Assembly (NCBI RefSeq): GCF_018320785.1
Contig: NC_054885.1
Location: 8,444,921 to 8,508,920, forward strand
Source: Cheilinus undulatus
Lineage: Eukaryota; Chordata; Actinopteri; Labriformes; Labridae
Reading direction: 5' to 3'
Length of the DNA stretch: 64,000 nucleotides
The notes under the pieces were generated by a model. The model saw only the letters and a list, made by a program, of their open reading frames with translations, was not told the origin of the DNA and did no database searches. Below, in pieces: positions 7,701-57,379 of the stretch. The position numbers and the translations under genes are program-made. Positions within the stretch are counted from its first letter, which is position 1; every line of letters starts with the position of its first letter.

Positions 7701-10700
7701 GCTTTCAGAAAGTCTTCAGACTTCCTTCACTTTTTTCATTTTTATGTTGCAGTAAAAGGAAGCATTTTTATTATCATTGATCTACATTCAGTACCCCATC
7801 ATGACAAAGTGAAAACAGAATTTTATTTTCTTTTTTTAAAATGTATAAAAAAAAGGTGTGCCAAGCGTGTTGCATCATATTCAAAAAGACTCAAGGCTGA
7901 ATTTGCTGCCAAAGGTGCTTCAACTAAATACTGAACAAAGGTTCTGAATACTCATGTCAATAGGATATTTGAGTTTTTTTATTTTTAGTTGATTTTGCAA
8001 AATGATGGAGTACTGAGTGTAGATCACTGAGAATAAAAACTAAATTACTGCAGCATCAAGCTGCACCATAAACTGGATAAAGTGAAGGAGGTCTAAATTC
8101 TTTCTGAATGCACTGTATCATAGCACTTCTCTGTCCCTCTCTGTCTTGTCTCATTATCATTGATAAACCTGAAACAAAAAGTCAGAAACTATAGCACAAA
8201 CTAAAGTTTTTATTTCAGAGTCAGCATGGGTCTTTCTCCATGCTGTTTCAACAAAACACAAAAAAACAAAAGCAGATTGAGGAAATGTATATGGTATGAC
8301 AAGGGATAGCTATCAGGGCTGGGCAATTAATCGCATATAAAATTAAATCCCAATATGGCCTGTTGCAATTTACAAATGGCAGAAGTTGCACTTGAAATGT
8401 GTCAAAATGGCAGTTTATACATTATTTTGCAGCAGCTTTACAAGCTTAACCTCCTCCACCCCATCTGCCTCCTTAATAGCTTAAAACTTGTTGCACCCTC
8501 ATATTAAGATTCATGCTACTATGGATTCATTGATTCTGAAATAATTAAATTTTTTTCAATACACATTGTCATTTATGTTTCCATCTATATGGGGGTTTCT
8601 AGCTCCCTGGAAAGTTGAAGCAGCTGCTTGACTAACCCTCAGAGCAGAGCCTTCTGTGCCAAGTAAAACTGTCAGCTATATCCATTTTGCAATGAAATGG
8701 TTAAATGTATGATAAGTGTTCCTGACTGAAGGTCATTATATTGATTTATTGATCAGAGAGAAAATATATTTAGAAAGCAGAAAGGGAATGTAATGGAGGA
8801 GGTTATTTATATATACACTCATGCCCATATGTGCATGATTGTACATATTTGCATGCCCACTGTTTATTTATCCACATCTCACATCCTTTTGCCTTGTTAC
8901 GTTTTTTTAATCAGTACTTTTACATCCTCTTTGTTTTTAAATGCTTGAAGTGAACCACTTTGTCATTATTAAAATATAAACAAGATGGCAAAACCTCGCG
9001 TAGCTTCAAAACGTTTAATATTTTGACTTCTTATTCATTGTATTATAAATATCCGATGTTTGATTGGTGGTTTGTGTTGTTGTTGTTTCAGCCGACCCCT
9101 CCTCCCCCTCCAGTTCCCACCAAGCAGCAGTACCTGTGTCAGCCGCTGCTGGACGCCGTCATGGCCAACATCCGCTCTCCGGTCTTCAACCACTCTCTGT
9201 ACAGGACCTTCGCCCCCGCCATGACCACCATCCACGGACCTCCCATCACGTATGTGTTCTCTATGATGTCACACAGATCAATGCACTATCTTCAGTCAGT
9301 CACTATAATCAGTAGTAAAACCACTGGGATTAATGTTTGGGTATTTTTCCCCATCAGGGGTCCCATCATCTCAGGCAGGAAGAGGAAACACGAAGAGGAC
9401 GAGCGGCAGACCATCCCCAACATCCTGCAGGGGGAGGTCGCTCGTCTTGACGTCAAGTTCCTTGTCAACCTGGATCCTTCGTTCTGCAGCAACAATGGCA
9501 CCGTGCACCTTGTCTGCAAGTTAGGTGAGACTAATGGCCACAGTAAAAGGCTAATGTTGTTGTAATGTTGTTATAATGTGATGTCATTGTTGTGTTTTTG
9601 TGTCCACAGATGATAAAAACCTGCCCAGTGTTCCTCCTCTGCAGCTCAGCGTTCCTGCTGATTATCCTGATCAGAGTCCGTACTGGGCTGACGACGGGGA
9701 GCAATATGGTGAGACACAATAATACACAGACACAATGGACGTCATGGTAACACAAAGACATAGATATACAATGGGTTAACATGTAAGATTTTAAACTAGA
9801 AAAAATCTGTGGTCATCAGAGCATCCCTGTGACTGATGAGTGATCATCAGAGTAACTCTGAGACTGTTGAGTCTTTCTGGGAGGTTCACCTCAGGTCCCT
9901 GGAGATTCTGGATCCCAGAAACTTACAGGCATCCACATTACGCCCGTTTCAGACTGGGAGCGTGCTTTGCTGCTTGCGTGTGTCGTGTGTGTCAGCTCTG
10001 GCTCCTGCCGGTGCGGCTTTCACACAGGGCACGAGTTTGCTGCATGTCAGCCGCATTTTCCTGCTCTCAAAGCCCTGTCCTTCCTCACGAGTTTTACCTG
10101 ACTAAACCCCCCTACATGCTTATTGATTTAGCGTATTGAGGAACTTTGTCGGGAACTATTCAAAATAATAGCATTCTGTTCAAGTGAACGGAGTTTCTCT
10201 ACAGAAATACTAAACCAGGCTTTTACTTTGAAAAGCACAAACCAGAGAAGCATTCATACGGTGTTTATCTTTCCTGTGACATATTCTACCACTGTGGAGA
10301 CAGAATGTTTCACTAATAGTAGATCTTCAGAGAACAACTTTATCAAGCAGGCGCATTTAAGCTTTGTGGCCTTCCTCAGGGTTATCAAGAAACACATTGT
10401 AAACATATTCTATGTGCATATTTGCCACAACGATGTAAATATGGCTCTCTTTGTATCATTTTCCTGTCTAATATGGTCACCAGCCGCACGCGGTGCGTGG
10501 AAAAAATAGGCAAGACTTCAAATCTCTGAACTCTCCATGCCTGAGCCGCGTGAGCCGTGACGCTCATGCTGGCAGTCTGAAAGCCCTGACTTGTTAACAT
10601 GCAATCAAACTGAAAATCCACGCGTGTTGCGGTCAAGATGCGCGCATCACGCTCCCAGTCTGAAACGGGCTTTAGACACAGTACTGCTCAGGATGGTGAG

Positions 10701-25129: not shown

Positions 25130-26090
25130 CATCTAAAAAGTAGAAAATAATTTACTTCAGAAAGTTTAATTTTCTTATTATAGAATAAAATCAAATGAAG
25201 GGAAACCTTTCAAGACTATTGTTTTGATCCTGATGCTTACAGCTCAGTAAAATTCACTATCGAAAAATATTAGATTATTAAAGAAAGTCTACTTTATAAG
25301 GTTTCCTGAGCCTTCACTCTCTCAGTCTGGTTCAGTACACATAACCACCATCATGGGGGAGACTGCTGACTTCACTGTTGTCCAAAGGACAATCATTGTC
25401 ATCCTCACAAGGAGGGTAAGCTGCAGAAGGTCACTGCTGAAAGGACAGGCTGTTCACAGAGGCTGTATCAAATCATATTCATGGGAAGTTGACTGAAGGG
25501 AAAATATGGACAAGCAGCAGGGTGGAGCTTAGCCTTCAGAGGATTCCATCTGCTGAGAACTTTTATGGAGATACTGATCTCCTTTGCCAACAGAGCTTGG
25601 CATCTGCCCACAGTGAAGCCAAAACTACCAAACACTGGTCTCCTGACCATGGGAGTACTGTTTTTGATTGGCCATCCAACTGCTCTGACTTGAACCCCAT
25701 AGAGAATCTCTGGAGAAATGTTAAGAGGAAGATTAGAGACACCAGACGAGCTGAAGGCTGCTACCAGAGCAACCTGAGCTTCACAACACCCCAGCAGTGC
25801 CACAGGCTGATTGGCTTCATGCCACATTGCATAGAAGCAGGAACTTGTGCAAAAGTTTCACCCAAGAACTGAGTGCATCAATGAGCACAATTTTCTAGAA
25901 GGTCAACATTTCTCTATTATAAATCCTCTTTTGGACTGGTGTTTTGTGAACTGTAAGCTGTAATCATCAACATTAAAACAAAAAAGTCTTGAAATATTTC
26001 ACTTTATGATGATGTTGTCTAGAATATATGGAGGTTTCACATCTTGAATTAAACCACAGAAAAATGAACTTTTCCTCCAGTCATTGTAAT
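25130..26090 (+). mobile_element. degenerate Tc1-like transposon with partial transposase
   Basis: The 5' region contains CAGGTGCATCTAAAAAGTAG and GGGGGAGACTGCTGACTTCA. The open frame at 25489-25872 ends with a Tc1 transposase C-terminal block, including DWPSNCSDLNPIENLW followed by KRKIRDTRRAE. The central catalytic region is deleted relative to intact fish relatives and the N-terminal part is frame-broken. It is a dead copy. Confidence 0.85.
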
Positions 26091-39660: not shown

Positions 39661-42600
39661 ATGGCAATGCATGATATGAGTCGTGCCAAGGGTTTCCCCT
39701 GTAAAGAATGTGATATGGTTTGTCCGAGTACTCCAAGTCTTCTAGAGCATATGAAAGCACATTATCAGCAGGAAGAGACAGGAAGATTTGAGTGTGAACA
39801 GTGTGGCAGAATTTACAAGCATGCAGCGAGTCTAGCAAATCATAAAAAATCTCATGAAGTAGGATCCTTCCAGTGTCCTGTTTGTACTCGTACCCTCCCT
39901 AACGCAGTAGCGTTGAAGAACCACCTTCGTATCCATACTTTGTCCCCTAGTAGTGCACACGCAGAAGAAGAGAGTGAGGAAGTACCTGAAGAAGCAGCCC
40001 ACGACGAGAGGGACTATAACCTCGCCCAAGAACTCTCTGAGGGGTTTGGGCGCTCTCATTTGAACAATAGTGGTATGGGACATAGTGTCCTACAAAGCCA
40101 CGAGACAGACGACGGAAAAAAAGGCTCCCCTGAATCAGACGACGCTTGGGACAGACCGTTCAAGTGCGATCAGTGTGACAGAACCTACCGGCATCACGGT
40201 AGCCTGGTGAACCACAAAAAGTGTCACCAGCAAGGAACTTTTAAGTGCTCGGTGTGTTTTAAACAATATAGCAACCTGGCTGCCCTAAATAGTCACGAGA
40301 GAACTCATTCGAAGTTCAAGCCCCCCGGTGCATCCATGGTGAGCAGCAGCAGTAGCAGCAGCCTCCATGACTCGGAGCGCAGCAGTGGTGCCCAGTCATC
40401 CCAGAGCGATGACACGGCATCCTGTTTCTGCCACTTGTGCCAGATAGCTTTGCCAAACAAAGCAGACTTTCAGGAGCACATCCTGTTGCACAACACATCC
40501 TCTCCTTCCCTAGGACTGCCACGCAGCTTCCCTGGCATCATGCCTCACAATCTAAGTGCAGTTCGATCCCCAGCGTACACTCCTACCCTTGGGGACCCTT
40601 TGCCCCTTCCACCCCTGCCCACTGAGAAAAGAGGTCCCTATGATCCAATAATGGGTCCACCGGTCAACAATCCCATCTATACATGTGCATATTGTGGCGC
40701 AGGACACCCAGATTTGGAAACATTGAAAGTCCACTATCTGACTCATGATCCCCACCCTGCCTCCCATAGCCAGGACAACTCCATCCTCAACTCAGACACA
40801 ATGAGCTCTGGATCACAGGGTTCTGTGTCTTCGCCCTCAGGAGGCCGTGTGCCCCAGGCCAATTCTCCAGATGATGGAGAGCGGCGGTTTAAATGTGGGG
40901 AATGTGGTAAAAGCTACCGCCATGCGGGAAGCTTAGTCAACCACAAACGCTGCCATCAGACAGGCCATTATCAGTGTACCATTTGCTGTAAGCAGTACCC
41001 CCACTTGGCAGCGCTACACAGTCACCTAAGAAGTCACAAGGGGCGTAGCTCCAACCAGCCTTTAAGTAATGACAGCAATGACTGGCTGTCCCCAGAGCCT
41101 CTAACCCTGGATTCCCAGCAGAGCTATGTCCAGGAAGGCAGTGGTGCAACAACTCCCATATCACTGCCAGGAAATCTAGGTGATGCTGCCCATTTTGTAC
41201 CAGACGCAGGCCATAGTAGTGGCCTGGACTCACTTGAGTTCCACGATCGCTTCGATGGCAGCTCACTTTCCCAGAGCAACTCGGCCCACCGTCAGGCAGA
41301 CAGACATGTATGTGCAGACTGTGGTGAAATGTATGGAGATGTTTCTGGTATCAAGTCCCACATGTGTCCCCGTCGTGGCCAGCAGCAGCAACAACAGCAG
41401 CAGCCACAGCCGCCACCACCACAGCAGCAGGGCAACATGTCAAACGGCTTCATGGGGAACATGAACTACCACAGCACAAGTGGGACGCCACTGCCTGCTG
41501 GCAGCACTAGCAATCTAAAAGAAGGAAACGGCCAACGGCAGTACTCCCAAACTGGAGGCAAAAGAATGGGGAACAATGATAAAGAGGACGATGATGATGG
41601 AGAAGTGTATCAGTGCTCTGTTTGTGGCAACCACTATGCCAGTCTCAGAGCCCTCAGGAGCCACCTGCGTAGCCATGCCAATAACCCAACAGGGCCAGGA
41701 CCTTCTAATCTGGAGCAGGAATGGAGGATGATCTGCTCCACCTGCGGACAGAGCTTTGCTAGAAAGCAGGACCTCCTGAATCACCAGCTTATCCATGGCC
41801 CTCAAAGACCAGACGGACAGCAGCCTGGTATTGCAGGCAGTTCAGCTAACGGCAATGAAAAAATGGACGGTCCTCGGAACCACATATGCGTTGATTGTGG
41901 TATGTTTTTTGCTGACCGTCACCACCTGATCACCCATCTTTGCCCTGGTAAGAATCGGGGTAACTCGATGAACAAGCCGGGCCTTAATGGATCCAAAGGG
42001 ATTTCTGGAGATGGTGTAGCTGGAGGAAGTCGGGATGTTGGTGGAGATGCACGTAGGCCTATGGTTGACCAAAGTGACAAGCCACACAAGTGTGACCAAT
42101 GTGGACGAGGCTACAGACACCCCTGCTCACTCCTTAACCACAAGAAGTCCCATAAGACTGGTGTCTTCCGTTGTTTGGTGTGCCAGAAACGCTACTACAA
42201 CCTCTTGGCTCTCAAGAACCACCAAAGGACCCACTTTGATCTAAAAAGGTTGGTTCCAGTTTCTGAATTGTGAAGTATGCATGTTATGAGTATTAGTATT
42301 AGCAGTAAAATTTGATGTGTCTACTGAAAGGCCATAGCTGATAGTTGTTTACTACTGTCTTTGTCCTCTTCCTCTGCAGGCACAAGTGTGAAGAATGTGG
42401 CAAGGCTTTCAAGATCCAAAAGCAGCTGATCAACCACCTCCGTCTCCACGAGGAGCATCGAGCCAAAGGTCTTGTCAGGACTGGCCCTAATGGTTCCCGC
42501 TTCCAACAGCCTGGCCCCTCACAGTTGCAAACTCTTAGGGCAGAGTCATCAAAGGGCCAGGGAATGGGTGTAAAATACAACCCTCAAGGGTTCAAAAAGC

Positions 42601-45535
42601 CCTACTCTTCAGCAGGAACTTCCAGACCTCAGAAGTTTGACCCAGCTGAAAGTGGACGGCGGCCTTTTTCCTGCGAGGAATGTGGGAAAACATATCGCCA
42701 CGCAGGCAGTTTAGCCAACCACAAAAACCTTCACAAAATTGGGGAATATCACTGTAATGTCTGCAACTCAACATACCCCAACAGATTGGCAATGAAAAAT
42801 CACCTACGTCTCCACTTCGCCCAGAAGAAGCACAACTGCCAAGAGTGCGGAAAGGGCTTTCGTACTCAGAGACAGCTAGCTACCCACACTACAGCAGGCC
42901 TTTGCAAGGGTCCGCAGGGCCCAGGGGCTCAGATGGACTTTGAATGCGATGGCTGCTGTGAAGGCTTTTCCACAGCTGACGAGCTTGCAGCCCACGACTG
43001 CCCTGCCCAGCACTTGCCTTCGTCCTCCTCCACCAGCAGCTCCACCAACATCAGCATGGAGAGAAACTCAGTGGACATGGACTCTGATGAGAGACCCTAT
43101 GCCTGTGATCTTTGCAGTTGTGCCTACAAACATGCAAGCTCCTTGCTAAACCACAAGCACACCCACAAGACGGGCAACTTCCGGTGCAACTTTTGTGACA
43201 AGCCCTACACCAACTACATGGCACTACGCAACCACATGCGTATCCACACGCAGCGGAAGAAGCACATCTGCCACACTTGTGGGAAAGCCTTCCGTCTAGC
43301 CAGGTTCCTCCGTAACCACCAGAAGGTCCATGAGGAAGGGGCTACTCCCTTCGGCTGCCCCACCTGTGGCAAGAGTTTCCAGGGGAGATCCGGTCTGGCA
43401 AGGCACCGCTGCGGGGACAACCAGGTAGGCATGGAAGTCAGGAGGAAGGCCACTGCACCCACGGGAGAGGGCGAAGAGTGTCGGTACACGTGAGTTCTCG
43501 TCAGTTGTTTGTGATTCTTCGAAGTTGAAAAAAAAAAATAGTGAAGATAAATTTAGGTCTCTACATGTCTATTACAGGTATATGATCTCCAATCCGGCTT
43601 CCTTGGGACCATACGCGTGCCGGAATTCGGATTTTTCTGAAGTTTGGACAAATTGAATTAGTGGAGAGACCAGATAAGTCAACCCTGTTTGCTTTCAGTT
43701 AGCATATTTAACACACTTCAGTTTTTTTTGTTTTAGTCTGCCAACAATCAACTTTTCTTTTCAGATGTTTGTTTTCATGCTTTGTTTTCTCAGAAATCTT
43801 TGACACAGATAAACGTAGTGTGTAGAATATTGGCAAATATAAAGTTTTGATGTTGTGTGTTCCTTCCTCTTGTCATGATTTGAATTGTAGTCTGATTTGT
43901 TTGTTCTGTATAGGTGCTAGTTACTGGCCAGTTATTTGACTAGAATATGCAGCTATATGATGGAGCTTTTTGCATTGTGATATCTTGGCAAACTAAACTC
44001 ACAGGGAAGATTAGGAAGTATTTGAAGCTAGCTGCACTGCACATGTCAAGAAGATAATACTCATTTTTACATGATTAATACAACACAGCAACTACACTGT
44101 GGCTTGGCAGTGGTTATCAATGCACTTGTTATTGTTATTTCATCTTTACATTGAGAAACAACAAATTAACCCAAAGATGGCTGTGAATTAAGGTCTTTGA
44201 AATAGTTTCAGATGTAAAAGAAGCTGTTTGAAGCTTGTGTTCATTTGTGCAGTGCAGGGAGCAGCAGATACTTCCAACTTCCCGACATGAACCCCCATTG
44301 TTTGTCCCGTTTTCCCCTTCTCCCACTCAGCAGTCCTCTCCCCTATGACATGTCTATAAATCATAATAATAAATGGTACACCACTTTGTTATAGTATTCT
44401 TTAAAAGCTTTGAGCCGGATTTCAGATCATATACCTGTATGTGTAACATCTTAGATGAGCAGTTAGAATATATCCTTAATTTTAAAGAACAAGTGGTAAC
44501 CAGTAGCTTAAGACTAACTTGATTAGAACGGTAAAAACAGTGAAAAGCACCATCTTCCGCTACTAATTTCCTATTTTTTCTCCCTCTTCCCCTCTATCCC
44601 CTTCCCCTCGTCCTCCCCTGTTGTTTTTTCCTTGTTTGTCTCTGCACAGATGTGATCAATGCGGCCGCTCCTACCGCCATGCCAGCTCCCTCCTTAACCA
44701 CAAGAACACCCACACTGTCGGCATCTACCACTGTGCCGTGTGCCTCAAGACCTACTCCAACCTTCTTGCCCTGAAGAACCACCGCCGTATCCACTCAGAG
44801 ACGCGGCGCCACCGTTGCCACGACTGCGGCAAGGCCTTCCGTGTTTCCTCCCAGCTCTACAACCACCGACGTGTCCACCAGAAGCAGCGGGAGCTGACCT
44901 GCCGGTCCTGTCAGCGAGCCTTCCCAACGCACGCCAGTTTCAGGCTCCACATGGAGATCACGCATGGTCAGACGCCACAGCCCCGCCAGCCCAGACCCCA
45001 GCAGCCCCGACCAGGGGGCTCCCAGGAGCTGGGCTGGGGATCTGGCTTGGACCTCACCTTAATGCAAGAGCAAGGACTCAACCCTGGTAGCATGACCAAA
45101 GCCCGCAGCCGAGAGGGCAACGGTGAGGTTGTCAAGTCGCATGTCTGCGACCAGTGTGGACGCTCGTACCGCCACGCCAGCTCCCTGCTCAACCACAAGA
45201 ACAGTCACAAAACTGGGACCTACTTTTGTAACTCCTGCCAGAAGGAGTTCCCCAATCTAATGTCTCTCAAGAACCACAGACGTATCCACACCGAGCCCAA
45301 ACGCTACCAGTGCCCTGACTGCGGCAAGTCGTTCCGGGTGTCCACCCAGCTCATCTGCCATCGTCGCATCCACACCAAGGAGAAACCGTTCTCCTGCCAG
45401 CAGTGCGACAAACGCTTCTCGTCCAAGTCCAACCTGAGGCACCACATGAAGGTGCACTGGAGCTCCACGGCGCCCCCTCCCATGGCCATGGGTGCGCCCA
45501 ACTTCCTGGGTATGCCTGGTGGCCCCTTCATATGA
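39661..45535 (+). CDS. znf646: poly-C2H2 zinc-finger protein, ZNF646-like, three coding exons
   Basis: This is a probable nuclear DNA-binding protein of 1527 aa plus TGA. Exons: 39661-42248, 42380-43489, 44650-45535, all GT/AG and in frame. The first ATG (MAMHDMSRAKGF) follows an in-frame TGA at 39628. I count about 32 zinc fingers in recurring modules of a Y[RK]H[AP]xSLxNHKxxH finger followed by a FxCxxCxKxYxNLxALKNHxRxH finger. These modules and the dispersed arrangement resemble ZNF646 (human about 1829 aa). Several fingers are C2HC variants ending HxC. Gln/Pro-rich (near residue 575) and acidic (near 643) linkers separate them. Both introns fall immediately before a finger. Exon 3 ends with four tightly linked fingers and a short Pro/Met-rich tail. 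An internal donor after 45122 may switch the C-terminus to the exon at 55521. ZNF646 is the best family match; orthology was not tested. Confidence 0.85.
43575..44437. mobile_element. pogo/Tigger-like MITE in znf646-like intron 2
   Basis: The left end is CAGGTATATGATCTCCAATC then CGGCT, and the right end AGCCGGATTTCAGATCATAT then ACCTG. These are imperfect inverted termini flanked on both sides by TA, the target duplication expected of the Tc1/mariner/pogo superfamily. It spans about 863 bp with no transposase ORF. Confidence 0.72.
45122..45128 (+). promoter_or_regulatory. internal alternative 5' splice site in exon 3 of the znf646-like gene
   Basis: The sequence GGCAACG/GTGAGGTT offers a good donor after 45122, splitting a Gly codon after its first base. 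The acceptor before 55521 supplies exactly the missing two bases (GT), so splicing between them keeps the frame. The site lies in the linker just before the four terminal fingers. Use is predicted, not shown. Confidence 0.5.
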
Positions 45536-47826
45536 GTTAAGGGATGAGGGAGGGGGATGTGGTTGAGACATGGGAGGGGGGCGGGGGGGGGGGGCAGTCA
45601 CATGCCAAGGTTTCTGGAGGTGCCAAAACGTAGCTTTTCCTTCTGCTCACCTTCCTCTTCCTCATTTTCATGTGTGTCTGAAGTGTGTGTGAGGGCTCTT
45701 AGACTCAAACACAGAGCAGGAGGGAGAATGGACGCTACACACCCTTGCACACGCTCACACACATACAAACAAAAATGGAGGATGTGCACACAAACACCTC
45801 TAAAGGCTTCATCGCAGATGAACACAAGGCTGTGGTTGTAGATCCGTCTGACTGACGGGCAGACATGGACTGAATACAGACGTGTTATAAACGACATGAT
45901 CTTCACTACACCTGCCTTACTCCCCGCTGCGTGTCGCCTGTAAGGCTCTGTGAACCTCTGGACCTTTGATGCCTCTCACAGCTGCAGAGACTGAGCTGAT
46001 GCAGACTATTGGTTGGAGCTCGTCCACACTGACGAGTCCAGCTGTAGAGACTTGTGATTGACTTGAGTGTCAGCAGAGCTGCTGTGAGGGTCCAGATAAA
46101 GGCATAAGGATGTCGGATGCTTATTTTCCAGTAATGAGCCATCTTGTCCATTTCAATCCCGGGAGCTGATTGGTCCCGTGCTGCAGTTGGTTTCCTGTTT
46201 TCCCGCCTCCATCCTTGTTTAAGGGGAGTCTTGTCTTGATGGAATCTTCTCTCGTGGCCTTTGTCACAATGTTTTTAAACCATATTCTGACTGAGTTGGT
46301 CTCAACAAGGTTCAGACTGTTTTGATTTATGTGTGACCAACACATAGTGGATGTTCTACTAAGAGAGAGGTGTGGTTTATTTTTCTTTTTTTTGCACCTT
46401 AACGGTTTGGTAAGAGATGGCAAGGACTTCCTGAAGCTTTTAGGGCCCAAGACGGGATGCTTTCTTCCATTTTAACCACCAAGATGATTGTTATATTCTA
46501 GCCGCCTCCCAGACAGACGGTGTACAATTGCCTTGTTCACACACAGACTCAGCAGCAGTAAAACCATAAAGGTTTGCCTAATGCTCAATGCAAACTTCAT
46601 TTCCTGTGTAGCTGCTTTCAGTTAATCAGTGCCTGTCAGCCTTGAGTTGTCAATCTCAACTTAAGTGCCTGACCCCTTTTTAACTTTTTTCAGGGTCTTC
46701 ATCAATAAGTGGATATTGATTTGCTGTGTCAGTGCTGAAAACCAGTTTTACAGCTGAACTTAAAGCCAGTATTTATATCTCATATCATATGAAATAAGTC
46801 TTGAAAGTACTTTGAATCAAGCTAAGATGCTTAGACTGCAATTGAGTGATTTTTTTTTCCTGTACTGAAGACTGAAGTAGAGGTGTGTACCATCACTTCT
46901 GAAAATAAAAAATGCTGCTTTTCCTAGTTAGTTAGAGTTAAAGAGAAAAAAATGGCCTAACTTTGCTGAACTAACAGATTGTCTTATTTATTCTGATAAC
47001 TAGAGCTGTTTTTCTAAATTAACTAGTTAGATATCATTATTTTAAAAAAAACAGGAGTTAATTTTTTTCTCCAAATCCTTAGATAACTATCTTGTTTCTT
47101 GAATAAAGCAAAAAGATTTAGATTTCATTTCAAGCAAATGCAGTGTACCTCTAAAGAAGACAATTTAAATGGTTGAAAGCTTTAGAAAAAGGTTCAAAAA
47201 GGATTCAATTTTAAACTTGAAAAAAAAAAAACATGTTACCTTGTGAGACAAATCCTTGAAGAAGTGTATAAACCAAAATCAAAGGAATATCAAGGGAAAT
47301 TTGGGCTGCAACAATGCCAAAAAGGTACAAAATGGACCAGATTACTACAGTACTTATATGGCATAACACTTAGGGTGGGGAGCCAAAATGCTACCATGTA
47401 TGTTTACTTTCTGGGCCGTAAATTGAAAGGTCAGATTCTAATAATCTATTATCTAGTCCAACAATCTGTGTTTTTCCCTCTCCTATAGGAAAATGACTAC
47501 AAATCAATGGAATCTTAAAATCTTGAGAGAGACTGGACCACAGTTTATGTTGCAAAAATACCTTAAAATCCAGAGTAAAAGTCGCCTGGTGAATAAGCCG
47601 CAGTCTCAAGTTCCTTTTTGTGTGATAGGTTCCATTTCATTTAGCCAAGTCCTCAAAATACAGTCCCCGTGCAGCTGCATCACTCTTTTAGTATAATCTG
47701 TTTTTGCCCATTGGGATTTTTGCATTTACCAGCCACTATAACACGGTAGTTGAGCTCTCAGTGATTTTTGTGAGACAGACTTGCAGCCTGCGAGTGCCTC
47801 TGCCCCCCTCCTTTTTGAGTTGAGTT

Positions 47827-48456
47827 TTGGGCCTTGTCCACACAGAGATGAAAATGATTTATTTCTGTTCGTTTTGAAAAAGTTTTCCGTAAACACAGGA
47901 TTGTTTCAGGAAATGTTCGCGTAAGTATGGAACCACAGAAAACGCTGTAGTATATACACCAAGCCTGTAGGTGGTGCTGTAATGCTGCCATGGAAATGCA
48001 CCCAAAAGAGAGAAGATTATGGCGCATACATATTATCTATTATAATATCATATCTCCTTTGTGGATCTAAGAACATCTGGTGTATGCTGTTCTCCATGAC
48101 CATTTGTAGTTGGCAGTGGTGGTAAAGGAGCATCAGATTTTGCTGTAAAAGCAAAAGCTCAGTAGCCTCTGCAGTACAAACACAACCCTGTATTCTGCCA
48201 TTGTTGTTTTGGCTTGACTCGTGTATATGGCTTAAGTGGGCTGTGGTATTTATGACATAACTATCAAGAAAGATGTGGTTGGCTGTCCACACAGAGACAA
48301 AACGGTAAGCGTTTACAGATTTGTTCACTCTGGGACCCGTTTTCAAAAAGTAGCGTTTATGGCGTCCCAAAATGCCATTTATGTGTGGATGAAACGCCGA
48401 TATGATAAACTTTTGCATTTAGTCCTGAATTTGTCTCTGTGTGGACAGGGCCTTTT
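47827..48456. mobile_element. TIR-bounded MITE (GGCCTTGTCCACACAGAG termini)
   Basis: The left end GGGCCTTGTCCACACAGAGA is mirrored by TCTCTGTGTGGACAGGGCC at the right. The interior includes GTTTTCAAAAAGTAGCGTTT and GTTTTGAAAAAGTTTTCCGT, a second partly inverted pair. It has no coding capacity. Confidence 0.75.
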
Positions 48457-51390
48457 AGTCAAACCAGCACTCAACAAGGATTATTTACCTAATGGTATTA
48501 CTCCATTTTCTTTAAATGAAGAAGTATGATCAAACAAGGGGGAAACAGTTATAAAGGGCGCCAAACCCTGCAGGTGTGGACTCTGTCAATCTCGTGCAAA
48601 GTGTGACAGTGGCAGTAATGACCTTAGGCGTCTCAGCACTTTATACTGGTATACTGATCATCCTGGTGTATAGGCCATAGTCATTAGAAGTTTAGCTTAT
48701 ACATCAGATTTTATGGTAATCTGTACTGACATGTCACCATGTCACATTACGTTTAGGGAGGGAAACTAAAATGCGATCATGTTGTACTTTATTTTTGGGG
48801 GTTTTTAGTCATGAAATCATTAAGAGTCTATTTTATCCCTCTCCAAATGTGAAGTAACTGAGTTTAAAGGAAAATATAGAGAGATTGGACCACAGTTCAA
48901 GTTAGAAAAATATTTGATAATCAGCTAGATAGAAGCTAATATTAGCCATTGATTTAGATTTTAAAAAGTAACTTAAAACAGATAAATGAAGTGCCTTTAT
49001 GTGTATTTATTAATTTAAATAAACTATTTTCTTTGTTCTTATTTGGGTCTTTCAGAAATCGCACTGTGCAGCCTTCTGACAGCGGCCACTTGTGTCTTCA
49101 TAAACTTGTTACTGAAATGTCATCAGCCATTTCTAATGATGTTCAAAGTAACATTAGTTGACCGGACTATCTCTACGAATGTTACATATGATTAAACTAA
49201 AAGAGCTGTGGTTCTCCCACACTGCAGCGCATAAGTGAATCTGTAAAATAAACAGTTGGAATGTCTATAAATGAACAGGCCATGCTGTAACGAGGAATGG
49301 AACAAGGTGGTGCTTAAAGTGTGGATCCACTCACCTAGGATCAGCCTTGTGTAATTGAGCTTCTGCCTCGAGCATCATGCCGGTGTATCTGTGACAGTAG
49401 CAGTGTCACCTATAGCCTGAACATGCATGCAGTTTAGTTATATAATTACACTAGACATTGTCGCTGTTATGATATAATACATGAGTGGTATCATGAGTCT
49501 ACTTGCTTTGGGTATCAAGTGAAATTGTGGCAATTTTGTAGTGTGTATTTCTCAGCATCAAATTGCTTTAAAAAAAACCCCACAATTTTTATTTCCTTTT
49601 TAGAAAATAAAGGTACTTCTATGAATTGCAATAATGGCACTGTTGTAAACTGAATGGCCTTTCTGTGGATATTAATTTAAATCTTTCAAGTTCTGCTTAA
49701 TGCAAAACAGTTGCAGTCTTTTATGCAATTAAGTAACTGCACCGCCTGAAATTGTAGTTGCAATTAGATTGTGCAGCATTACTGATAAGTGGTATCAGAG
49801 CGGATGATGTGCTTCAGGTCACATGACTAACATCACAGGTCTTCACTCAGCCCTATGGATTATTCTATTCCATTGTTTTTGTTGATGCTTTTCAGTGAGG
49901 AGGGGATAAAATCAAAACAGCCGTCAGAATCTTCTTACTTGTTGACCTTGAATTTTACAGAATGACATGATAACATTTGAGCTTCCCGCCCTGTGCAAAT
50001 CGTCACAGGAACATGGCTGCTTTGATAATTTGGATATTTTTCTTATTTTTATTATGGTGGAAGTGCAATTCAAAGTCTGGACAACAGACACCAACTTTTT
50101 TTTTTTTTTTTTTTTTTCATTTTACAGCTATGGTATACGTTGTCTGTCACTTTCTCTGTCTGTCTGATTCTGTGTGAGAACAAGACAAAAACATGGTTTT
50201 TGATACTTGTCGCATTCCCGTCTTGGTCCTTATCTCAAATATACCGCTGCACATGTAGATATAGGCCAAAAAAAGGAGAAAGAAACCACAATAAAGAGTA
50301 AAAACAGGAGGAGTAAAGGGAGGGAGAGGTGTATATTGATGGGTTCTGTTCTGTTTGATCCTGTATCGTATCGTATTCTGACTGTATTCTCTACAGAACC
50401 TCTTTTATAAGGAGAAAAGACGACACATCATTGTAGTAATGCATTTATTTATATTATTATTATTACTATTAACACTTGTAATGGACGGCGCTAGTCTTTA
50501 GGATGTGTGAGTTTAGAGCTGTGTTGATGTAAACCCCTCTCCTTTCTACCCACAATGCCCCAGTTCTGTGGAGACGATGGACACTCTGAGACTCTGTGTG
50601 AACTTTTAGGAACTGTACACAATGGAAAGTGTTTTTCTTGCCTTTAACCAAGTGATGTTGTGACGGTTTTTCTCAGTCGAGCCTTCCCATCATCCCTCCC
50701 CTCCATATTTATCTCCACTGAGTTTGACCTTACCCCCCTGGTCCCGGTCTTCGCCCCCTTCCTTCCTGTTTCACAAGTCAAACTTGCGTTGAAAAGGGAC
50801 GACTCAGTGACCCTCCTCTTGAATCGGAGTGCATTAAGTCCTCATCATCTGAACCTTTTTTATGTTACACTTTTATGGTAACCTCTTGTATTTATTGGTG
50901 TTATTTTTTTCCTTATATTTAATTGCGTTTTATGACTATTTGGAAGCCTCTGTGTGTGTTTAAAACCACAGTTTGTCAGCGTTTTCAGGAGCACTGGTGC
51001 TAGTTTAAAAAAAGAAAAAAGATAAAAAGTCAAAGCCGTGCAGTGACCGTCAAGTGCTGTAGGAGTCGATGTGATCTTGATCTAGAACACAGAAATAATA
51101 ACTGTACATTCTCGACTTTTATTTTGGCATTTTCCTCCTCCACCATGTTTGATTTTGCTTTCCGAGTGCACACTTTCCCGCCTGCATTTCAAGTAGATTT
51201 AGAGAGAAGAAGAAGAAAAGATTGGTTTGGAACAACTATAACCCCTTTTTTGTTTTTAAGTTCTAACATTTTGTTTCCATGCATATATATGTAATGCTTA
51301 CTATACACTTTTATAAACTATGTTTTGATAATTCATTTCTTAACAGAAAAACTTGTCCATATACTATAACCCTTACTGCTGAGTACTGAA

Positions 51391-51396
51391 AATAAA
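51391..51396 (+). terminator. AATAAA poly(A) signal, candidate distal end of the znf646-like exon 3 transcript
   Basis: Canonical AATAAA in the context GTACTGAAAATAAATAGCTG, about 5.86 kb after the exon 3 stop. The next 25 nt would carry the cleavage site. An interspersed repeat starts soon after, at about 51475, consistent with the conserved transcript ending here. Confidence 0.5.
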
Positions 51397-51474
51397 TAGC
51401 TGAAAACATACAGCTGAGGTCGGTGTTTTTAATGCATTCGCCTTCAACACTTTCTTCTCTGGTTCACACTTAAA

Positions 51475-51540
51475 GGTCACTTTATTAGGTACACCTGTTC
51501 AGTCTGGTGCTCTTGAATGAATCTCTAATATGGAAGAAGC
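51475..51540. mobile_element. terminal fragment of a Tc1-like element
   Basis: AGGTCACTTTATTAGGTACA then CCTGTTCAG is the terminus of the same family as 2305-2640 and 19316-19430. The following 20-70 bp are only loosely similar. Confidence 0.65.
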
Positions 51541-52388
51541 CTCTCTGGATGTGTGAGGTAAACAATGCAGATCTAGAAGCTGTTAACTATGCAGAAGCAT
51601 CATGGCTGCCGAGTGTGTTTAATATAAGTCAAACTAATTTATGTTTGCATAGATAAGATATCGTTAGGGCTATTAGGATTAATGTATGAATCTGTGAAGA
51701 TCCTTAAGTGCATTCATTTTTGTAATCATGATTGATCTCATGCATTATTGCCCCTTTCGGCACACTTTGGTAAAGCCACTGTAAAGTCTCCCTGCAGCCA
51801 CGTTGATGTAAATGAAGTTCATCACTGCTCCAATATATTATTGAAGATACCATTCTGAATTTTTTGAATATAACTTTGTATCTGCAGTTCTTACTTCGTC
51901 ATGTAACTCCATTGACAACAGCTTAGAATTCTTTATTAGTCCATGCTCTAGAGGCAGAAATGCCCAAGCATCCTAGAAAGGCACACTTCATAATATGTAT
52001 AATAATCTAAGTTAAGGTTTTCAACATTCAGAGACATAACATTTATAAAAAAAATCGATTTATTTTGATGAGTACACCTCTAATATGAAATGGTTTATGC
52101 TTTACTAAGAAAAAGTCACATTTTTGAGTTGTGTTGCTTCATCTCTTAAAACTGATTGATATTTTTATTTATCCTACAGTTTTAACAGTTATGATACTCG
52201 GAGGAGCCTGAATTAAAGTAATCACAGCACAGCTGGGATATTTTACACCAAAACGTAAAAGCACTACTTCCTGTCCTGCATTTGAACATGAAAGTTTGGG
52301 TTTGATAAAGAGTTAAACTGTTGTACATCTAACATCAAAACACTGGTTGGAAATGTTAGGCAATGTTTGAATCTGTGAAATGTCTTTG

Positions 52389-52441
52389 GTGTATAGACTC
52401 CATCGTGATGTCAGTATGACATCACGATGGAGTCTAGACAC
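52389..52441. repeat. near-perfect palindrome, 20-bp perfect arms, 3-nt loop
   Basis: 52394-52413 (TAGACTCCATCGTGATGTCA) and 52417-52436 are exact reverse complements separated by GTA. One mismatch later the pairing continues to about 25 bp (GTGTA versus GACAC). Confidence 0.9.
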
Positions 52442-52977
52442 TTGTGGTGGTGATGGAGGGAGTTGGATGAGATGAGTAATAGACTTCTGAGGAGCAGATT
52501 TCCCAGGAGCTTGACACCGAGACCAATGAGATGTAATGGAAGTGGCTGGGGTGGAGGAGGGTTGCAGCAGTCACACTGAAACAGCAGACTGACTGTGGAG
52601 GAAAGAGAACAGAGCTTCAGGATGATTGGATTAAGAGAGGTCATGACTGAAAGGGATTAGCTCAGAGCTTACATGAGTAGACGCCCGTTCCAGCTGATTA
52701 CCAGAGCAGGAAACAGTGCGGTCAAAGGGAATGATGTAAGGGAATGATTACTAATGAATGAAAAGCTTTAAACAAAATCCCAAAAGAGACGCATTGTTAT
52801 TTCTACTAGGCAAAGCTAAGCAATCATGCCTTGTGTTTCAACGAGCCTCACGATACTGTCTTTTTAGGGTTTGCATCAGATATAATGTTTATGTTGCTTT
52901 CATTTAAACTTTTAACATATAACAGCAGCCAATCGTCATGCAGAGAAAATTTCATTGTACAATAAACAGAAAAAAAT

Positions 52978-53670
52978 ACGGAGCCCCAGACATGACATGG
53001 TCAAAAAATAATTAAATTGTGGCCACAGTATAGCTATAACGTGCACACAAAATACTAATTCGTGAACATGAAATACTAAATTGTGGCCACGAAGTAGGTA
53101 TAAAGTGCGCATGAAATACTAATTAATAATATTAATATCATTCCTGGACAGCTGGGTAAGTAAATTGGGCAAACCTTCTCTAAGGTCTAAGGTAGAGGCA
53201 GTAGAGGGGCTGAAGCTGATGGACAGGGATAGTATGAATTTTATTTTAGGCTGGGAGTGAGCTACAAAAACATTCGGAAAAGCCTGGCATTGCAAGGAAC
53301 CATTATTACCGAGAGGCATTTAAACAGAATATTGAGAGCCAGGTTGCTTTACCGGCTTAGGTACGACTTGGATGCCGGGATAGGAAGGTGCGCTTGATTT
53401 GCTTACCCAGCTGTCCAGGAATGATATTAATATTATTAATTAGTATTTCGTACGCACATTACACCTACTTTGTGGCCACAAATTAGTATTTCTTGCGCAT
53501 GTTATACTTATTTTGTGGCCACAAATAATTATTTAGTGGCCACGGATTAGTATTTCATGGTCACGAATAAGTATTTTGTAGCCATGAATTAGTTTTTCCT
53601 GCTATTTTATTTCCAGCTATATTGTGGCCACAATTTAAATTTTTTTACCATGTCATGTCTGGGGCTTCGT
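52978..53670. mobile_element. non-autonomous DNA transposon with long inverted arms and an inner inverted pair
   Basis: The outer termini CGGAGCCCCAGACATGACAT / ATGTCATGTCTGGGGCTTCG begin long, imperfect inverted arms of about 170-240 bp rich in TTGTGGCCAC and TAGTATTTC phrases. Inside, TCATTCCTGGACAGCTGGGT / ACCCAGCTGTCCAGGAATGA forms a second perfect inverted pair at 53139-53158 and about 53405-53424, bounding about 250 bp of unique sequence. No intact ORF. Confidence 0.82.
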
Positions 53671-53764
53671 AAAAAAAGAATAAATGGTTCCAAAAATTTT
53701 TTTGGGCACAAATCCTGCAATATGGTTGAAACCTTTGCTTCCTGTCTGAATAGTCTCCTGTCTA

Positions 53765-54240
53765 CTAGGGCTGGACAATTAATCACAAATTAGATTAAAT
53801 CATAATATGGCCTGCTGCAATTTTCAAATCACAGTTTGAAACTTTTTTGCAGCAGAGACATTATAAATTGCACATCATGCAATCATTCTAGTGGCATATT
53901 TTAGAATACTGTACAAACAAATATCCTTTTTTCTTCACCTTTGTATGTTTTTCTCATTAAATACCAGAATTATAATACAATTATTAGTCCCTTTAATACA
54001 GCAGTTCATATTCAATTTGCTAAATGGGTCCAAATCATCACAATTATATATTATTATTATTATTTCATATAGATATTTTTTTCAAAATTGTCCAGCCCTA
54101 GATTCATCTAATACTGTGTTGGTTATAGTATAGAATGAATTTAACTTTGATTGAACTTAAGAAATAATTGCATATTGAATTGTAATATTGGGGAAAAAAA
54201 ATTGCAGTTAGATTATTTTCTGAAATCTTTCAGCCCTGCT
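53765..54240. mobile_element. MITE pair with AGGGCTGGACAATT / AATTGTCCAGCCCT termini
   Basis: 53768 AGGGCTGGACAATTAATCAC and AAAATTGTCCAGCCCTAGAT near 54093 form the terminal inverted pair. Sequence to about 54238 (ending GAAATCTTTCAGCCCTGCT) matches the far end of the relic at 3.17-3.60 kb, so an outer, older copy seems to hold an inner terminus. Confidence 0.65.
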
Positions 54241-54694
54241 GTCTGCTTTGACTTTTTTCTGTGTTGTTGTGTGAAAATGATTCATGGTAGGCTTGTCTGA
54301 TGTGACCTGTGGTCAGACCGTCTGTGACATCTTTTCGTCACGCAGCTCAAAAACCAACGGACAAACAGCCTCATGGGATCAAACTGTGACAAAATAATCC
54401 CTTTATTCTGCTTGTAAACATTAATTATGTCTGTTTAATTCTGAAAAGCACGTTCCTCTCTGTTAACACTTCATTACTGTTTTTCTGACTGTTGAAAAAA
54501 TGTCAAAGTAAACCCACAGTTTCTCCTTGACATCATATTATATTAGGGTGAAGTAAGCCTGTTTACATAGAAGCCTATTATAGTGGGAAAAAAATCTGTC
54601 ATCATAATAGAAAACTAAAAATAGTGACTAGATATGTGTTGTTCTATGAAGAGAACTTGACAGAGAAAGATGTTTAGTAAAGTAAGAAGCATTT

Positions 54695-54850
54695 TAGGGC
54701 GTTTTCACATAAAGCATGACTGTTTTGCACCGTGCTCGAGCATGATTGCTCCACTCTCTCCTTTTTCCAGCTGATCTGATTTCACATCAGCAGCATTATT
54801 CCATGCTCAAGCACAGTTGCATAGCAGTCAGCCAAATACAGTCGCTGGAA
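54695..54850. mobile_element. probable interspersed repeat (GGGCGTTTTCACAT...)
   Basis: TTAGGGCGTTTTCACATAAA, GCACCGTGCTCGAGCATGAT and CATGCTCAAGCACAGTTGC resemble a fish repeat with termini beginning GTTTTCACA. The boundaries are unclear. Confidence 0.4.
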
Positions 54851-55520
54851 AGCTGCTAAGTAGAAAGATGAAGATGCAGCTATTCCAACCTTTTGTCTAC
54901 GTTCTAAGCCAGCAATGGAGTCCATCCTGCTACTGTGGATGTTTTTATTTTTTCTGAGACACTCTTCCATCTTCTCTGTTGCACAGAGGATGAAATGGGC
55001 CTACGTTATGCAGATGTGAGAACTGCCTTTACAACTCTACTCGCTCTAAATGTGCTCGGTAAATGTCAGAACTGTTTTCACATAAGTTCTCACAAGATCT
55101 GAACAGTTTTAGTAAAAGTGTCAAACAGATTTGTGTTTGTCATAAGAAAGTTTAAGTTATGAGGAACCTACAAGTCTATTTCTACTTGAACTGTCTGTAA
55201 TATGAGTGTAATGTTCAGATTTCTGTGTCACCTTCCTGGTCACTGTTTCTTTACGTAACCCTTCTTAAGTGTGTTTTTCTTGAAAGATGTCGTTGTGAAG
55301 CTGCAGACCTCAGTGATTCTCCGTAAACAAAGTGGACTTTTGCTGATGGACTCCGGAGGTTTGCAGGTGGACTTTGCAGTCGTGGTTAAAGGGGGGTCTT
55401 TATTTTTAGACGCCTCTGTCAATCATGTGTCACATCAGCTCTGAATCACTTCCCAGCTTGTGTAACAGTTCACCTCAGTACACTTGGTCTGAACTCAACC
55501 CCGGTGTTTGTCTTCCTCAG

Positions 55521-55933
55521 GTCTGAGTCCGGTGGCTCCGGCCTGCATCTCCCGGAGCTTCATCTGCGATCAGTGCGGACGCTCGTACCGCCATGCCAGC
55601 TCCCTACTCAACCACAAGAACAGCCACAAGACTGGGAACTACTTCTGTAGCTCCTGTCAGAAGGAGTTCCTCAACCTGATGTCCCTCAAGAACCACAGAC
55701 GGATCCACACCGAGCCTAAGCGCTACAAGTGCCCCGACTGCAGCAAGTCGTTCAGAGTGTCTTCAGTGCTCATCTGCCACCGTCGCATCCACACTAAAGA
55801 GAAACCGTACTCCTGTCCGCACTGTGACAAACGCTTCTCATCACGGTCCAACCTGAGGCACCACATGAAGGTACACTGGAGGGGGGAGAAGTCTACTGCC
55901 TTCCTCAGCATCCCATCCGGATCTTTTACGTAG
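55521..55933 (+). CDS. alternative terminal exon of the znf646-like gene: duplicated last four zinc fingers
   Basis: The acceptor TTTGTCTTCCTCAG is followed by an exon of 136 complete codons plus a TAG stop. It encodes a short linker, then four C2H2 fingers (CDQCGRSYRHASSLLNH, CSSCQKEFLNLMSLKNH, CPDCSKSFRVSSVLICH, CPHCDKRFSSRSNLRHH) and a new tail ending PSGSFT. It aligns gap-free with residues encoded by 45139-45465. By hand count about 25 codons differ synonymously and about 11 non-synonymously over about 103 codons. The exon needs one base carried in, which matches the exon 3 internal donor after 45122, not the donor after 43489. It could alternatively be a recently orphaned exon or part of an unrecognised gene. 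Confidence 0.65.
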
Positions 55934-56149
55934 ACGTCGACCTTCCCTTTTTACCAAAGATAGGGTCAGGATGCCTTAGGGCTTGGTCTGTTCAAGGGTT
56001 TAGATCAGTGATACTCAACGTGTGGCTCTTTTATGTCTTTATTTAAAATATTATTCCCCCAGAAAACCTTAGAAAAGGGAAACTTTGACCTCAGAAATTA
56101 ATCACATTAATCATTTTGTTAACCAGAATTATACAGAAGGCTTTTATTG

Positions 56150-57070
56150 TCAAAACTTAATTATCCCATTTATCCAACTTTTGCCATTTTTATCCCATTT
56201 TTGCCCATTTTCACATTTTTTTTGCCCAATTAAGCTATCTTTGCCATTAAATATCACCTTTTTCCCTATTTTTGCCACTTCTTTGTGACACTTTTCCCCA
56301 TTATTGCCACTTTTATCCCACTTTTGCCCCTTTTTACTATTTTTTCACTTTTTTTTTGCCAATTTAAGCTACCTTTTGCCATTAAATACCACTTTCCACC
56401 CTATTTTTGCCCATTTTTGCTACTTCTTTATGGTAATTTCTTCCCTTTTTTACCACTTTTATCCAATTTTTGCCCCTTTTCACAATTTTTTTAAACATTT
56501 TTTTTGCCCATTTACATTACCTTATGCTATTAAATACCACTTTTTTCCCTATTTTTGCCCATTCTTGCTACCTCTTCATGACCCCCCCCCCCCCCGCATT
56601 TTTACCACTTTTATCCCATTTTTGCCCCTTTTCACAATTTTTTTTTGCTTAATTAAGCTACCTTGTGCCATTAAATGCAACTTTTTTCCCCCTATTTTTG
56701 CCCATTTTTGCCACTTTTTCCATTTTTGCCCCTTTTAACCATTTTTTTTGCCCATTTAAGCTACCTTGTGCCATTACATACCACTAGTTTCCTCTTTTTG
56801 TTGCCAATTTTTGCAACTTCTTTATAACAGTTTTATCCCATCTTTGCCCCTTTTCACCATTTTTCACCGTTTTCTGCCCATTTCAGCTACCTTTTGCCAT
56901 TAAATAACACTTTTTTTCCTATTTTTTTTGCCCTATTTTGCCACTCTTGACTGCTTTTTGCCCATTTAGTTAGGTTTTCCTTATTTTTTTGCCAGGTTTT
57001 TGCCACTTTTGGGCCAATTTTGCCACCTTCAACTTATCTTTATTGCTACTTCAAGCCATTTTTGCTACTT
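56150..57070. repeat. degenerate tandem repeat, units about 100-150 bp (TTTTTGCCAC-rich)
   Basis: Units are marked by AAGCTACCTTTTGCCATTAA-like phrases starting near 56231, 56367, 56514, 56655, 56758 and 56885, with CCACTTTTATCCCATTTTTG between them. The strand asymmetry (T/C-rich plus strand) gives Phe/Leu/Pro-rich spurious ORFs. Confidence 0.8.
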
Positions 57071-57373
57071 TTCACTATGTATATTGTGACTCTTACGAAG
57101 TATTTTTCAACAGTGTGGCTCTTTGGTTGAGCAGGGTTGAGTAACATCTGAGGTTTAGATCATAATAATTGCTGCACAGTTCAAGGTATAATGTATTCCT
57201 CAGAGTAGATGCACAGTTATATTTCACTTTTACACATGCGTCTCCTCTCCACATTTTAGCTCCAGTCTTGCAGACCAAAACAAAACTTTTTTGTCACACA
57301 CCCTCAGTCCCTTATTGCACTTCCCCCTTGCCTAACCCTAACCTACTGTCCCAGTGCAGCACTTCTTTGTCTT

Positions 57374-57379
57374 AATAAA
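57374..57379 (+). terminator. AATAAA poly(A) signal, candidate end of the alternative exon transcript
   Basis: Canonical AATAAA in the context TTTGTCTTAATAAAATCTC, about 1.44 kb after the stop of the 55521-55933 exon and beyond the tandem array. It is the first good signal I noticed downstream. Confidence 0.45.

Follow-up and report, generated by a model that had tools for sequence, protein, structure and literature searches.

A duplicated four-finger exon as a putative alternative 3' end of a znf646-like gene in Cheilinus undulatus

Introduction

The IGHM (IgM mu) exon is of the composite type. Its secreted/membrane switch is a case of intronic polyadenylation, in which the donor of the exon is either read through to a near poly(A) site or spliced to far exons, with a change of the C-terminus (PMC5928244). 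Alternative C-termini made of zinc fingers are described for Drosophila lola, in which a common N-terminal part is combined with alternative C-terminal zinc-finger units differing in DNA specificity; its N-part is of the BTB type, its isoforms number at least 20, and the fingers show no sequence conservation among themselves (PMC5127561). In tandem duplicated exon substitution events, a coding exon that has been duplicated within its gene could take the place of its homologue in the protein (PMC9741552); neither 'zinc finger' nor 'terminal exons' occurs in the main text of that paper. The pip gene of Drosophila is reported to have tandemly duplicated terminal exons in mutually exclusive use (PMC9013439).

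Here we describe a locus in the fish Cheilinus undulatus that resembles each of these systems and departs from each. The window, that is, the whole stretch of 64,000 nucleotides that was analysed (C21:8444921-8508920, in a searched genome of 1.17 Gb and 46 contigs), contains a znf646-like gene and, some 10 kb downstream of it, a second version of the last part of its last exon. Unlike IGHM, in which a tail and a membrane anchor are exchanged, the alternatives here are homologous zinc-finger blocks in products of equal protein length, and their use is predicted. In contrast to lola, there are two units, with 94 of 105 residues alike, on a fish poly-finger protein. The locus also differs from tandem duplicated exon substitution, as the parent unit is the end of a longer exon and not a separate exon, so that the choice would lie between splicing and polyadenylation. 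Among the titles and abstract openings surveyed in the literature on ZNF646, composite terminal exons, lola and exon duplication, none describes the exon starting at 55521, which does not prove that no description exists.

Results

The host gene and the duplicated block

The host gene consists of three coding exons which are open when joined and encode 1527 codons, both introns being in phase 2 (Table 1). A long C2H2 finger array is a feature of the 1527-aa product. Pfam zf-C2H2 was matched in exon 3 and in the copy, the Pfam matches being mostly to zinc-finger families with a few weak others (for example, CpXC and C1_4), and the matches to solved structures were, among the best 60 of 224, to C2H2 proteins of other kinds, the best being the artificial Aart and ZNF568. 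Elsewhere in the window, glutamine-rich frames are present at 4077-9565, a stretch of which we take to be MED15-like, and an open frame at 25441-25872 is presumably similar to the C-terminal portion of a transposase of the Tc1 type.

Table 1 Features of the znf646-like gene and of the downstream duplicate, in positions of the window
Feature	Position	Strand	Remarks
Coding exon 1, znf646-like	39661..42248	+	First ATG of the long frame; donor AAAAAG/GTTGGT, phase 2; from open frame, sequence and joined frame
Coding exon 2, znf646-like	42380..43489	+	Donor TACAC/GTGAGT, phase 2; same phase in C20 paralogue
Exon 3, proposed composite terminal exon	44650..45535	+	Two four-finger blocks; stop TGA at 45533-45535
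Putative internal donor G/GTGAGG in exon 3	45122..45128	+	Exon end 45122, phase 1; approximate weight matrix
Proximal last four-finger block, parent of the copy	45146..45460	+	Sequence comparison
Candidate proximal poly(A) signals	46904..51396	+	Motif scan only
Proposed distal alternative last exon	55521..55933	+	Acceptor CTTCCTCAG/GT, phase 1; four fingers; stop TAG at 55931-55933
Duplicated four-finger block, 105 codons, very probably under purifying selection	55565..55879	+	Alignment, omega estimates
Candidate distal poly(A) signals	56246..57379	+	Motif scan only

The first-pass annotation had noticed that the last four fingers of exon 3 are present a second time, intact, and had counted about 25 synonymous and about 11 non-synonymous differences in a hand alignment without gaps. 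Both observations were confirmed. The copy lies in an open frame of 146 aa (55493-55933), with an acceptor at 55521 and its own TAG, and contains four intact C2H2 fingers in which 16 of 16 zinc ligands are present. Over 105 codons it aligned ungapped with its parent (55565-55879 against 45146-45460), with an identity of 87.3% over 315 nt and 94 identical residues out of 105, and the codon differences were recomputed as exactly 25 synonymous and 11 non-synonymous. Copy and parent are homologous coding units that share gene region and orientation. Their C-terminal tails (24 and 17 aa) align weakly, yet none of 500 shuffles reached the score of that alignment. The two alternative ends are exactly equal, at 414 nt each including the stop (45122-45535 against 45122 plus 55521-55933), which, with N-parts and tails of differing length, is perhaps a coincidence.

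A protein search of the genome with the copy returned the copy itself (100%), the parent (86%) and then a paralogue on C20 (72%), among the best 150 of 3325 candidates scored; because the next-best match in the genome reaches only 72%, the match between copy and parent is not due to chance. When the 1527-aa protein was used as a query against the window (tblastn, E up to 1), nothing outside 39-46 kb was matched save the copy itself, and a tandem duplicate of the whole gene was rejected, since no other piece of the gene appeared at that threshold. On the upstream side, spread by a repeat was rejected as well, as a genome search with 55060-55520, of a kind that skips simple repeats and very common words, found only that segment itself. 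The 10 kb beyond the window contained 24 ORFs of at least 80 aa. Four loci with 32-45% zinc-finger likeness were found by contig search in bacterial MAG records, which is uninformative for the exon, and a search of viral contigs found no relatives of it.

The C20 paralogue

The paralogue (C20:16870958-16882475, minus strand) has the same three-exon layout and the same phases, with 1519 codons. Its neighbour, in head-to-head orientation, is a 658-aa C2H2 ORF that we take to be ZNF668-like; ZNF646 and ZNF668 have a head-to-head layout, and a neighbour of this kind fits the name ZNF646. Upstream of the gene in the window, a scan for C2H2 patterns showed no ZNF668-like neighbour. A paper on perforin evolution places ZNF646 and ZNF668 at one locus or syntenic block, beside STX4 (PMC7574235).

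Nucleotide identity was 0.873 between parent and copy, and 0.765 and 0.724 for these two against the C20 paralogue. Since parent and copy are closer to each other than to the paralogue, the exon duplication is, barring gene conversion, younger than the gene duplication. No second copy of the exon was found by tblastn (E up to 1e-3) in the 11 kb downstream of the paralogue. Its exon 3 also has no comparable internal donor, the top GT there coinciding with the first base of the exon and the highest-scoring interior one reaching -0.45 (splice scores here and below come from approximate weight matrices); the best GTs elsewhere in its CDS, with scores of 4.76 and 4.14, are both in exon 2. With no second exon in those 11 kb and no such donor in its exon 3, the paralogue is a natural control.

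Selection on the copy

From the excess of silent changes the duplicate had been read as an exon kept by selection, with the dN/dS between the copies named as a check. By NG86, the comparison of copy and parent gave a dS of 0.65, a dN of 0.051 and an omega of 0.079, and the pairwise maximum likelihood omega was 0.044 with local codon frequencies and 0.080 with those of the gene. These values, 0.04-0.08 overall, uphold the excess, with the caveat that in a pairwise omega a constrained parent can mask a neutral copy; a pairwise model with a parent omega of 0 and a copy omega of 1 was still worse by a 2dL of 42 or 24. When the C20 paralogue served as outgroup and the times on the copy and parent branches were set equal, an assumption that we take as given by the duplication itself, the copy-branch omega was 0.080 or 0.141, depending on codon frequencies. 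This range of 0.08-0.14 supports the claim of selection on the branch of the copy as well. Fixing the copy-branch omega at 1 under equal times cost a 2dL of 45.6 or 29.0, so a neutral copy is rejected; an omega of 0.2 cost 5.7 or 0.9 and one of 0.3 cost 12.2 or 4.1, a 2dL of 3.84 being crossed at 0.15-0.2 or 0.25-0.3, again by codon frequencies. Without the assumption of equal times the three-sequence fit hits a boundary, and a copy omega of 1 is rejected by a 2dL of only 5.7.

When changes were assigned to branches with the same outgroup, six amino-acid changes fell on the copy, one on the parent and four were not assignable, and the synonymous changes were divided into 10 on the copy and eight on the parent, with the rest not assignable, which matches the equal-time prediction. 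Non-synonymous changes made up 6 of the 16 assigned to the copy, against 75% expected (P = 0.0019); with all unassigned amino-acid changes put on the copy and none of the unassigned synonymous ones, P was 0.016. Some relaxation on the copy is possible, given that it has more amino-acid changes than the parent, the difference in rate (6:10 against 1:8) being not significant (Fisher P = 0.35).

A pseudogene fragment would be marked by relaxed or neutral substitution and a broken frame; here the frame is open and an omega of 1 is rejected under the pairwise and the equal-time models. Taken on these comparisons of codons, the exon has very probably been under purifying selection since the duplication. 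That it is instead a neutrally decaying duplicate or an assembly artefact we regard as highly improbable. Such an origin would agree with flanks that lack strong homology and with an anchored upstream alignment that is unremarkable (see below), but the neutral version is rejected under the same two sets of models. In neutral simulations started from the copy, with 0.325 changes per site and an assumed indel rate, none of 5000 runs kept the amino-acid changes to 10 or fewer, the core stayed free of stops in 6.7%, and all ligands were kept in a fraction of 5e-5 of 20000 (one run). We do not consider a false haplotypic duplication credible, as the 87% identity is confined to the exon and the upstream flank has no second match in the genome.

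A recent relic is a less improbable account than neutral decay, though in our judgement still a distinctly unlikely one. The block would have been selected for most of its life, for example in a full copy of the gene that is now lost, and would have gone out of use lately. An average omega cannot separate a short recent neutral phase from none, a copy-branch omega of 0.2 costs a 2dL of only 0.9 to 5.7, and the assigned amino-acid changes (six on the copy, one on the parent) lean the same way. Against this, tblastn found nothing left of exon 1, exon 2 or the first exon-3 block next to the copy, the acceptor and its matching donor would have to be accidents, and 137 codons have come through without a break in frame.

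Splice anatomy

The acceptor CTTCCTCAG/GT at 55521 has a score that is reached by 2 of the 1240 AGs in 45.6-64 kb, 55521 itself counted, and by 2 of 92240 noncoding positions, against 112 for the score of the real acceptor of exon 3. By chance, 0.001 to 0.05 such acceptors are expected in 42 nt. GC content is 67% in 55521-55562 and 50% in the preceding 42 nt. As this acceptor leaves two bases before the first full codon, a phase-1 donor is required. The alternative last exon proposed in the first-pass annotation therefore cannot be a plain swap for exon 3: joining exon 2 to 55521 (phase-2 donor, phase-1 acceptor) shifts the frame and meets a stop 43 codons past the junction. A phase-2 alternative AG at 55526-55527 (exon start 55528), which scores -5.1, was rejected. 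The proposal remains plausible in a modified form, with a phase-matched donor at 45123 inside exon 3, from which the join is open.

This donor, AACG/GTGAGG at 45122/45123, is in phase 1 and lies in the linker that immediately precedes the last four fingers of exon 3. It scores 4.94, against 1.84 and 3.56 for the ordinary donors of the gene, and is the second best of the 230 GTs of the CDS and the best of those in exon 3; it was picked post hoc, and 6 of the 230 GTs pass at the score of the weakest real donor of the gene. Under a strict threshold, which was set after the fact, one other GT (41948) passes in the 9138 bp of both CDSs, and the chance expectation is 0.02 in the 187-bp linker and 0.007 in phase. 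The predicted join of 45122 to 55521 keeps the frame open over 1527 aa, the same as the standard length, and swaps exactly the homologous block. Its junction would read ...SREGNG/LSPVAPACISRSFICDQCG... in the protein and ...GAGGGCAACG/GTCTGAGTCC... in the nucleotide sequence.

It is conceivable, and in our view unlikely, that the exon is translated and selected and yet joined elsewhere, either to an upstream exon, so far unrecognised, that belongs to a short independent gene within 45.5-55.5 kb or to exon 1. A second donor of equal strength (CTG/GTAAGA at 41948, exon end 41947, score 4.98) is present in exon 1, also in phase 1, and the predicted join of 41947 to 55521 gives an open frame of 899 aa with the copy; short exons in the 10-kb gap would escape a scan that covered gene likeness, C2H2 patterns and ORF lengths only. 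Use of 41948 would on the other hand leave out the last part of exon 1 as well as exons 2 and 3 entirely, and between the gene and the copy no further gene likeness and no other C2H2 pattern was found. The donor at 45123 requires no extra exon and preserves the layout of the protein. A composite terminal exon with this donor would be the most economical use of the exon.

Sequence upstream of the copy

Parent and copy share a near-match of 13 nt (12 of 13), situated 70 nt upstream of the fingers in the former and 72 nt in the latter. Near that diagonal it was equalled in 3 of 5000 shuffles and in 1 of 4000 real noncoding segments. Taken as a whole, the anchored upstream alignment does not stand out: it was reached by 50 of 2000 shuffles of mononucleotides, by 142 of 2000 of triplet blocks and by 166 of 4000 real segments, and the score of a free local alignment upstream was reached by 9 of 300 shuffles. 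The 13-nt match was noticed post hoc; if it is real, it would suggest that the duplicate carried linker DNA, and the new polypyrimidine tract and acceptor would have arisen within former linker coding sequence.

At 53004-53579, inside the proposed long intron, a short core is flanked by inverted repeats that reach 112 nt (88% complementary), an arrangement resembling a small DNA transposon. In intron 2 (43579-44445) a short inverted pair was recognised by eye, AGGTATATGATCTCCAATCCGG near 43579 with its near complement around 44420, and is perhaps another small transposon.

Poly(A) signals

After the proximal stop, AATAAA occurs at 46904, 47102, 49018, 49247, 49606, 50290, 51391 and at others further on, as a motif count only, and a motif scan places ATTAAA at 49191. 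The exon had also been credited with an AATAAA of its own downstream. One does exist, at 57374, the first after the distal stop in the motif scan, though it is 1.4 kb away, and the nearer signals are ATTAAA (56246, 56381, 56529, 56670 and 56899), all inside a pyrimidine-rich repeat array at 56149-57041. This array, just past the distal stop, consists of degenerate TTTTTGCCCATTTTTGCC-type units in tandem, in which ATTAAA recurs.

Discussion

On the observed homology, open frame, phase match and purifying selection since the duplication, we consider that 55521-55933 probably, with some reserve, functions as an alternative 3' end for the znf646-like gene, by way of a composite terminal exon of the IgM type. 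With the donor at 45122/45123 skipped and polyadenylation at a proximal site, the protein would end in the proximal four fingers. If the donor is used, a 10.4-kb intron (45123-55520) would remove the proximal block together with its stop, and 55521 would be joined in frame to 45122, G/GT giving Gly, to bring in the distal four-finger block. With this donor in use, mutually exclusive ends would be forced by the anatomy. The spliced product would have the same 1527 aa, one changed recognition helix in finger 3 and a different C-terminal tail.

Zinc fingers of this type contact bases through helix positions -1, 2, 3 and 6. The residues at these positions in fingers 1-4 are HSSN, NMSN, VTQC and SSNH in the parent and HSSN, NMSN, VSVC and SSNH in the copy, so that finger 3 alone differs from the parent; finger 3 of the C20 paralogue has VTQC. 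As only the contacts of finger 3 are changed, mainly one finger would be expected to read DNA differently. We infer that the junction of 45122 with 55521 would be made, that both ends would be polyadenylated and that the two forms would differ in how they read DNA.

A fuller account, which we find about as easy to doubt as to accept, would be a splice-or-polyadenylate switch in the style of IgM that exchanges a whole four-finger block: after the split from the C20 paralogue, a downstream duplicate (possibly with about 70 nt of linker) would have gained an acceptor and the parent exon an internal donor. The junction that it predicts is exact, 45122 to 55521. If this is true, one gene would give rise to two large zinc-finger proteins distinguished by a single recognition helix and by their C-terminal tails, and the choice between the two forms would be one between splicing and polyadenylation.
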